A program made the position numbers and the translations under genes. Source: Candidatus Eiseniibacteriota bacterium (GTDB lineage: Bacteria > Arandabacterota > Arandabacteria > JAGLYR01). From it: a DNA stretch of 7,940 bases. The stretch lies in contig JAGLYR010000175.1 in assembly GCA_023132135.1 (NCBI GenBank), forward strand, positions 1 through 7,940. The letters run 5' to 3'. Shown here one piece after another: positions 2,801-7,940 of this stretch. Each line of letters starts with the position of its first letter. Positions within the stretch are counted from its first letter, which is position 1. The notes beneath the pieces were generated by a model. The model had not been told where the DNA came from, did no database searches, and saw only the letters and a list, made by a program, of their open reading frames with translations.

Positions 2801-2868
2801 AGTCCCTAGTCCAAGGAAAAGGGCATCATACCCTCACCCTACCCTCTCCCGGAGGGAGAGGGAAAACA
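2801..2868. repeat. Left arm of inverted repeat flanking rpsT
   Basis: This 68-bp copy matches the reverse complement of 3462-3530 with one substitution and one 1-base indel. It contains CATCATACCCTCACCCTACC and a perfect 9-bp hairpin CCCTCTCCC-GGA-GGGAGAGGG (2842-2862). It is preceded by a further AGTCCCT unit at 2794-2800. The hairpin has no following T-run on either strand, so it is not a canonical terminator. The type is familiar: such GAGAGGG repeats are scattered through many bacterial genomes and, when translated, give the artefact peptide PHPTLSQRERE. Confidence 0.9.
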
Positions 2869-3331: not shown

Positions 3332-3366
3332 CCTCTCGCCACGGGATTCCTGAATAACCTAGGCTA
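3332..3366. repeat. Partial (single-end) copy of the fold-back element
   Basis: These 35 bases match 959-993, the right end of the fold-back element, with one substitution (C to T in the AACCCAGG part). Like that end, the copy finishes in GGCTA. No matching left end is found upstream or downstream, so it is a solo end or a remnant. It lies inside the inverted-repeat-bounded rpsT segment, about 40 bp upstream of the rpsT -35 box. Confidence 0.8.
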
Positions 3367-3461
3367 CAACGGCAACGTTGCGAGTGCTAGAGTGGGCGAC
3401 AAGGGGAAGGGGCGAGAACGGCGAACCCTCAGCCGCAGATTACGCAGAGCAAGAAGACAGA

Positions 3462-3530
3462 TGTTTTCCCTCTCCCTCTGGGAGAGGGTAGGGTGAGGGT
3501 ATGATGCCCTTTTTCCTTGGACTAGGGACT
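3462..3530. repeat. Right arm of inverted repeat flanking rpsT
   Basis: This 69-bp copy is the reverse complement of 2801-2868, with one substitution and one extra T in a T-run. It includes the hairpin CCCTCTCCC-TCT-GGGAGAGGG (3468-3488). The hairpin arms are identical to those of the left copy and only the loop differs. About 593 bp carrying rpsT lie between the two arms. Confidence 0.9.
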
Positions 3531-3557
3531 TGGCACTACGCACTAGGGACTTGGCAC
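3521..3557. repeat. Short tandem repeat, 16-bp unit at 21-bp period
   Basis: ACTAGGGACTTGGCAC occurs at 3521-3536 and again at 3542-3557, separated by TACGC. The left inverted-repeat arm has a related but shorter 7-bp tandem (AGTCCCT at 2794-2800 and 2801-2807). The edges of this repeat family therefore seem to vary in copy number. Confidence 0.8.
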
Positions 3558-3582
3558 TTGTAATACAGGTTGGGTGATAAGA

Positions 3583-5352
3583 ATGAGAGCGAAAGAACAG
3601 TGTCGGGGTTCGTCTCCCCATCGGGTATTGATTTGCGTAGTCTGTGCAATCTGCGGCTTGCTTTTTTCTGTCGCACCAGGGGACTGCGCGGGGGACAGCC
3701 TCTTCGTCGTCTCGCGTGTCGTGGTGGAAGGGCACAGCGTGATGTCCACGCGCGAGATCCTGGAGAGCGTCGGGATCGGGCCGGGCGATGCCGTGGGCCG
3801 CGCTGAGACCCGGGGCCGTCTGGAGAGTCTGTTGGTCCGGTACCGGGATTCGGGTTTCCCAAGGGCCCGGGTCGTGGCATTGTGGAAATTGGTCCGGGAG
3901 GGCCGGACCGAGCTGAGACTTCTCATCGACGAAGGCGCGAAATACCATGTTGGGTCGGTGACTCTCAGTGGATGCCGGGGTGTTTCCTGCCCGGAACTGG
4001 AGAGCTTCCTGGAAACCCGGAAAGGATCGTTGCTCCGGGGATCGATCCTGGAGGAAGATCTCGACAGATTGCTTGATGCGTACGAGAACCAGGGCTATCC
4101 TTACGTCAATCTCCAACTTGGGCCGCGGTGGTCGGAAGCGGGCGCCATCGATGTTCGGGTAGCCATCGACGAAGGCCCCAGGGTGGTCATCGACGAGATC
4201 CGAATCCGGGGGAACCGGACGACCAGGAAACATGTGATCGAGAGAGCGTGCGGAGTCGCGGTGGGGGACGTCTACTCACAGCGAGTTATCGACCGGATTG
4301 AACCCCGGCTCCTGGGGCTGGGTCTCTTTGACGAAGTCCGGACGGGAGTCTCACTCCGGGATGAAGCGGGCAGCGCGGTCCTGGACATCCGGGTGGGCGA
4401 AGCGAAGACCAACAGCGTGTACGGCGCGGTGGGGTACATTCCGCGGGAGGGCAAGGCGGGCTACCTGACGGGAGTTCTCGATGTCGCGTTCGGGAACATT
4501 TCCGGCACGGGCCGATCCGCCAGCGCGCGGTGGCGAACCTACCAGCCCGGCGCCTTTGAGTGGACCTTTACCTACGGGGAGCCCTGGCTGCTGGGCACTC
4601 CGCTCAAGGCCGGCTTCTCCATCTACCAGGACGTTCAGGACTCGATCCTCACGCAGACCGTAGGCGAGATCAGCCTGGAGTACCCCCTGGGAGATCAGTT
4701 CTGGGCTCGCGTGGCCGGGTGGTCGGAAGGTGTGACGGCGGGTTCAGGCGCCGGGGGCCTCATCCGGGGAAGCCGGAGGCGGACGGTGGACCTGGGGGTG
4801 AGGTGGGATTCCAGAGACGATCCCCTGAATCCGGGCCGGGGTCACCGGACGGAGCTGGGTGTGGCCTACGGGCGAAAGCGGTACGAGGGCCACACGGGAG
4901 ATGCGGTTCGATCCACCATCTACCAGGCCAGCGAGAATCTCTTTGTCCCGGTAGCCCGACGCCGGGTTCTTGCGCTGAGAATGGCTTTCTGGTGGCTGGA
5001 CAGCACGGAGAGAGAGATTCCTGACCATGAGCAATTGCCGGTGGGAGGTGCGGAGAGCCTGCGGGGGTATGGGGAGGATGAGTTCTCCGGCTGGCGCGTC
5101 CTCACCCTGGGAGCCGAGTACAGGATTCTACTCGGCCGGCGCTCCAGGGTCCAGGTGTTCGTGGACGCCGCTCATCTTGACCGCCGGCTGAGGGTATCCG
5201 GTGGTTGGGTGGACCGGGAGAAAAGGCTGTTCGGCTACGGGTTCGGGCTGCGGTCCGAGTCCCGCCTGGGGCAGATTGGGGTGGATTTCGGCCTGGCGGG
5301 AGGCGAGCCGCTGACCGAGGGGAAAATCCATGTTAGAGTGGAGAGCGAGTTC

Positions 5353-5355
<3 letters not shown>
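3583..5355 (+). CDS. Omp85-superfamily outer-membrane protein, three POTRA domains (TamA/BamA-like)
   Basis: The protein has 590 residues from ATG 3583; GTG 3574 would add three. Positions here count from the GTG. A signal peptide precedes about residue 41: basic N terminus, hydrophobic core at about 18-34 and possible cleavage after DCA. Three POTRA-like domains follow at about 44-122, 124-202 and 204-278, each with the G-x(n)-E(I/L) start and an end such as LLIDEG or VAIDEG. The rest is a 16-strand-type barrel (about 280-593), with the family motif WDSRDDPLNPGRG (411-423) and the LRGY loop motif (496-499). The last residue is Phe, as expected for a BAM-recognised beta-signal. Such proteins insert or export proteins at the outer membrane. 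Three POTRAs and this size resemble TamA more than five-POTRA BamA, but no TamB-like gene is present, so no symbol is given. The gene ends 21 nt before ligA. Neither start has a strong ribosome-binding site. Confidence 0.9.
3631..3657 (+). repeat. Three 9-bp tandem units inside the Omp85 signal-peptide codons
   Basis: ATTTGCGTA, GTCTGTGCA and ATCTGCGGC follow each other in frame and encode ICV, VCA and ICG, the hydrophobic core of the signal peptide. CTGTGCAATCTGCGGCT (3642-3658) matches the reverse complement of intergenic 3431-3447 at 15 of 17 bases. The signal sequence therefore appears to share its origin with an intergenic repeat. Confidence 0.7.
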
Positions 5356-7734: not shown

Positions 7735-7774
7735 CAAGGTCAAGATGGATCCCCGCGTGCGCGGGGATGACGAA
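7735..7774 (+). repeat. Palindromic intergenic repeat, full copy
   Basis: The unit reads GTCAAGATGGAT, then the hairpin CCCCGCG-TG-CGCGGGG (7751-7766), then ATGACGA. Including the flanking AT pairs, the palindrome spans 7749-7768. A direct copy begins at 7912 and agrees over 29 bases with one mismatch until the window ends. This is a familiar class of scattered palindromic repeat whose translation gives the artefact peptide SPRTRGSI or its reverse. Confidence 0.9.
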
Positions 7775-7790
7775 AGGCTTGGCCGCCGCA

Positions 7791-7893
7791 GCGTTCGCGG
7801 GAATGACGACCTAAAACCGGCGGGGTGGGACACCTCGTCGTCCTCGCGGAAGCGCTTTTTCTTGTCGTCCTCGCGAACGCGGGGACCCATTTT
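7791..7893. repeat. Half and inverted copies of the palindromic repeat
   Basis: A half copy GCGTTCGCGGGAATGACGAC lies at 7791-7810 on the plus strand. Two copies face the other way: GTCGTCCTCGCG at 7837-7848 and again at 7864-7875. The second continues into the hairpin CCTCGCG-AA-CGCGGGG (7869-7884) and GACCCAT. The order full-half, then half-full inverted, makes 7739-7893 an imperfect large inverted repeat. Confidence 0.8.
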
Positions 7894-7911
7894 GAAAGTG
7901 GGCTCTTCGAG

Positions 7912-7940
7912 CAAAGTCAAGATGGATCCCCGCGTGCGCG
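7912..7940 (+). repeat. Palindromic intergenic repeat, copy cut by window edge
   Basis: CAAAGTCAAGATGGATCCCC and the following GCGTGCGCG repeat the start of the copy at 7735-7763 with one mismatch. The window ends inside its hairpin, so the cluster continues beyond this sequence. Confidence 0.9.

Follow-up and report, generated by a model that had tools for sequence, protein, structure and literature searches.

The window analysed here, 7,940 nucleotides long, is an entire contig (C85) of a 3.4 Mb genome that is 96% complete in 345 contigs. It contains genes for a tRNA, a PTS EIIA domain protein, prolyl-tRNA synthetase, an Omp85 protein and NAD-dependent DNA ligase, as well as a gene for ribosomal protein S20 on the minus strand. 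The features around the start of the Omp85 gene are listed in Table 1. Palindromic repeats of the ATGGATCCCCGCGTGCGCGGGGATGACG type lie in 7741-7940, at the contig end, where the assembly probably breaks. Directly upstream of the Omp85 gene, ACTAGGGACTTGGCACT occurs twice in tandem (3521-3558); its first bases match many further sites in the genome, making it another dispersed repeat.

Proteins of the Omp85 superfamily are defined by N-terminal POTRA domains followed by an Omp85 beta-barrel domain, and both are found here above the Pfam cut-offs (POTRA, 81 bits, 8.3e-23; Omp85, 67 bits, 2.8e-18). Homologues are present in 56 of the 60 genomes in the searched set. An outer-membrane protein of this family requires an export signal. 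From ATG 3583, for which GTG 3574 is an alternative, the N terminus reads MRAKEQCRGSSPHR-VLICVVCAICGLLFSVA-PGDCAGDSLFVVSRVVVEG, and the first POTRA strand starts near residue 41 according to Pfam and the alignment. A Sec signal peptide is recognised by a basic n-region, a hydrophobic core and a signal peptidase site, the last judged here by eye. The predicted core is more hydrophobic (mean of the best window) than the 1.71-2.42 of the six homologues measured, and deleting the array codons in silico lowers its best window from 2.93 to 1.23. The array is located in the only credible Sec signal core predicted for this protein; from these properties we infer that translation starts at ATG 3583 and that the signal works.

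Table 1. Coordinates of repeat and coding features near the 5' end of the Omp85 gene (positions in the window).
Feature	Position	Strand	Basis or property
Omp85/POTRA outer-membrane protein CDS	3583..5355	+	ORF; 590 aa from ATG 3583
Predicted signal peptide n-region MRAKEQCRGSSPHR	3583..3624	+	net charge +3; without repeat signature
Predicted signal peptide hydrophobic region VLICVVCAICGLLFSVA	3625..3675	+	top 15-aa hydropathy window 2.93
27-bp array (3 x 9 bp), read in frame as ICVVCAICG	3630..3656	+	consensus match; family member
Tail CTTGCTTTT	3657..3665	+	common to a subgroup of genome copies; lengthens the likely repeat-derived stretch
Two-unit copy TCTGCGTAATCTGCGG of the array, in mosaic element	3433..3448	-	exact match; 12-copy composite group
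Mosaic element including the CCCTCTCCCAGAGGGAGAGGG palindrome	3343..3519 (extent approximate)	-	composite-copy alignment

The first-pass annotation had described the signal core as 9-bp tandem repeats encoding ICV-VCA-ICG, with three cysteines at a three-residue period. Sequence, frame and translation are as it described, with the register now set to 3630-3656. These bases, GATTTGCGTAGTCTGTGCAATCTGCGG, are identical to (AATCTGCGT)2AATCTGCGG at 22 of 27 positions, and all five mismatches are transitions. In the reading frame, GTA TTG ATT TGC GTA GTC TGT GCA ATC TGC GGC TTG is translated as V L I C V V C A I C G L. The reversed consensus, used as a control, gives no match of at least 17 anywhere in the window. 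Tandem Repeats Finder alone does not report the array, as its units are too diverged. Similarity to other copies in the genome continues to about 3665, see the tail in Table 1, with 20 of 20 bp shared with a copy on contig C76 and 92% identity over 25 bp with one on C4. For this reason, the repeat-derived DNA probably spans 3630-3665, i.e., ICVVCAICGLLF.

Searches of the whole genome confirm the earlier suggestion that the core resembles an intergenic repeat and show that this repeat is abundant elsewhere. Allowing up to three mismatches, the genome has 106 matches to the 16-mer TCTGCGTAATCTGCGG, whereas the reversed control gives 10. In the own-genome DNA examined with the 27-mer, 10 matches reach at least 22, and the reversed control has none of at least 18. 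With its 22 of 27 matches, the signal-core array belongs to this dispersed (AATCTGCGT)nAATCTGCGG family. The copies with at most two mismatches, the signal-core copy having two in the 16-mer core, fall into two groups. Twelve are part of a mosaic of at least 100 bp that contains the CCCTCTCCCAGAGGGAGAGGG palindrome, while 33 are solo copies with unrelated flanks, which have nothing in common beyond the array except in one subgroup. In that subgroup, to which the signal-core copy belongs, the array is followed by CTTGC(T/C)TTT. Gene positions place the solo copies at gene edges in unrelated surroundings, and nearly all of them, like nearly all other copies in this genome, are found between genes. 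Two copies provide the upstream gene with its last codons and stop (L026:1501-1509 and, on the minus strand at the array start, L034). The array-derived C-terminal ends of these two genes read GAA TCT GCG TAA and TGG TCT GCG TGA, respectively. In several gene gaps (L031, L110, L111), short repeats of the AACCACGAA type adjoin the array, as if different short repeats gather at common sites.

An inverted sequence of the same kind had also been pointed out in the non-coding DNA upstream, and it does exist: 3431-3448 matches 3641-3658 at 16 of 18 nt (89%). The two copies could be imagined as the ends of one element. This is ruled out, as the upstream copy forms the end of the 12-copy mosaic; since it belongs to this separate element, it is neither the partner nor the source of the signal-core array. 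Mosaic copies at 2811-2867 (plus strand, partial) and 3343-3519 (minus strand) flank the S20 gene in inverted orientation.

Outside this genome, the array is carried by many unrelated bacteria. It occurs in 20 of 290 sampled genomes, the genome of the window included. Among the matches listed, the exact 27-mer is spread over about a dozen phyla, and the named carriers include Verrucomicrobia, Planctomycetes, Lentisphaerae, Chloroflexi, Acidobacteria, NC10, Desulfobacterales, Riflebacteria, Alpha-, Beta- and Gammaproteobacteria, KSB1, WOR-3, Omnitrophota, Nitrospinota and Saprospiraceae. In the seven genomes of the same class that were searched, no copy of an 18-mer was found with at most one mismatch. 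The array often has three units (27 bp) in these other bacteria as well, and is often paired in inverted orientation, with some tens to 120 bp of unrelated sequence between the two copies. Pairs of CCGCAGATTACGCAGATT... around unrelated loops are seen in L117, L118, L120, L121 and L134, where long hairpins could form in the intergenic DNA. In the parts of two repeat-rich genomes that were compared with gene predictions, 12 of 62 copies overlap predicted genes, mostly at gene ends, and several of these seem to reflect mispredicted starts or C-terminal tails. No second clear ICV-frame signal core was found among 426 matches in other genomes, a count in which one three-unit array makes two matches. 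The signal core studied here is thus the only clear ICV-frame case among the more than 400 matches examined. A search of the window and six repeat loci against Rfam gave only the tRNA above gathering score, with no family at the repeats, and searches of a literature library by repeat sequence or encoded peptide found no description of the array.

The homologues of the Omp85 protein are only distantly similar (~24-30% identical), and a single-protein scan of genome contigs found no close relatives. Their signals are ~15-22 residues shorter and unrelated in sequence; the ICVVCAICG core is not found in them. As the array occurs without this Omp85 gene in many phyla and was not found in the seven same-class genomes, the repeat is the likely donor. 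The same distribution, together with the unrelated signals of the homologues, suggests that the array came after the gene, probably by insertion or fusion at its 5' end. The first-pass annotation had proposed that the native 5' end was replaced by repeat DNA. A repeat origin of the core is supported, given the abundance of the repeat elsewhere in the genome and the lack of this core in homologues, while insertion or extension fits the data as well as replacement does. No repeat signature is seen in the n-region (3583-3624) or in the ~70 bp of unique sequence that precede the array.

We consider it highly likely that the core of the Omp85 signal was made from a solo copy of the dispersed array of 9-bp units. 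A solo (AATCTGCGT)nAATCTGCGG copy, of the kind normally found in short gaps beside genes, would have reached the 5' end of the Omp85 gene and entered the reading frame in the register that reads (Ile/Val)-Cys-(Val/Ala). It would now serve as the hydrophobic core of the Sec signal that exports the protein. Points against recruitment are the low identity of the homologues (~24-30%), given that signal peptides diverge fast, the ease with which codon usage alone yields an equally good DNA match once the peptide is set (see below), and the rarity with which the array is coding elsewhere. A signal segment copied from another secreted gene was also considered and rejected, as the segment has no protein match in the genome and its DNA matches are repeat copies only.

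The resemblance might instead be a coincidence, in which an ordinary signal peptide happens to have a core rich in Ile, Val and Cys. Signal cores are free to vary, and once the peptide ICVVCAICG is fixed, 15% of codon-usage draws match the repeat as well as the real sequence does, with at least 22 matches. Therefore, codon choice carries no weight, and the evidence is instead the peptide pattern, three cysteines at period three with Ile/Val, plus the tail. However, a period-three cysteine triplet is rare, and the sequence downstream of the array also matches other copies. Further, in 300,000 simulated hydrophobic cores of 17 residues, drawn with the codon usage of this genome, the best match was 20 of 27 and none reached 21. 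If a genome is assumed to encode some hundreds of exported proteins, chance would supply fewer than about 0.01 matches of this quality. Coincidence is consequently improbable in our view.

Even less probable is a start of translation at or beyond TTG 3658, which would leave the array in the 5' untranslated region. The typical position of other copies, directly upstream of true starts, would agree with this, as would the codon-usage score, which climbs only from about 3720. With a start at TTG 3658, however, a protein that needs export, and whose first POTRA strand starts close to residue 41, would be left with no workable signal (best hydropathy 1.37, net charge -2). The frame also remains open upstream, with a basic n-region there. 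Finally, two unrelated loci could have been joined at the repeat during assembly, as may happen with a multicopy repeat in a draft of 345 contigs. Such a join would, however, have had to bring a start codon, a basic n-region and a suitable c-region into frame. The stretch in common is moreover just 27-36 bp long and has diverged from the other copies, which makes an artefact hardly credible. The observation is real, and the repeat was very probably recruited as the signal core.

Events of this kind are already known, but not with this repeat or this gene. In-frame fusions of MITE-like repeats with genes were described by Delihas (PMC2759123, PMC2229807). The closest case is RU-2, the Yersinia palindromic sequence, which contributes to the signal peptide predicted for YPO1552, whereas the signals in relatives are unrelated (Delihas 2007, PMC2759123). 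The mode is the same, a repeat recruited into a signal peptide. However, RU-2 is a 168-bp MITE-like element of Yersinia, whereas here a bare 27-bp array of 9-bp units, known from about a dozen phyla, is found in a gene of a conserved family, Omp85. Rickettsia palindromic elements (RPE, PMC2229807) are likewise repeats that genes of known function carry as translated, in-frame sequence, but these are stem-loops of 105-146 bp inside proteins, in contrast to the much shorter array in an N-terminal signal core. In MITEs of the RU-2 and RPE type, terminal inverted repeats enclose a conserved interior of at least ~100 bp. Here, the solo copies share the array alone, and the inverted pairs elsewhere enclose unrelated sequence; lacking such terminal repeats around a conserved interior, the array is not a member of these families. 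REP/BIME sequences (PMC3733652) are short, high-copy and extragenic, like the array, which is also often in inverted pairs in other genomes; the array differs in being tandem and not itself palindromic. REP sequences are palindromic units of 20-40 bp linked to a RAYT (Y1_Tnp) transposase. A REP/RAYT origin was rejected, as Y1_Tnp is found in genomes with and without the repeat and is lacking in the repeat-carrying genome G127.

The locus shows clearly, on a small scale, how non-coding repeat DNA can become part of a protein, here a predicted export signal. It also brings to notice a 9-bp array met repeatedly across about a dozen phyla, whose means of spread can be tested. It can be speculated, though we find it doubtful, that a bare array of 9-bp units, without any interior, spreads within and among phyla, lands at gene edges and donates segments to genes. 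The array could supply secretion or membrane segments ready for use because one of its frames always reads (Ile/Val)-Cys-Val, and if this speculation holds, it would also be a donor of stop codons.

The idea that the array is generally recruited as a signal was rejected, as the 426 matches in other genomes gave no clear second ICV-frame case; one possible case, in the opposite frame, is seen. A TolC-like protein (L142:12383-13745) from the unrelated, repeat-rich genome G248 has the repeat-like sequence SADCAEY at its likely signal cleavage site. This peptide would derive from the opposite frame of the array, with two mismatches, and is only suggestive.
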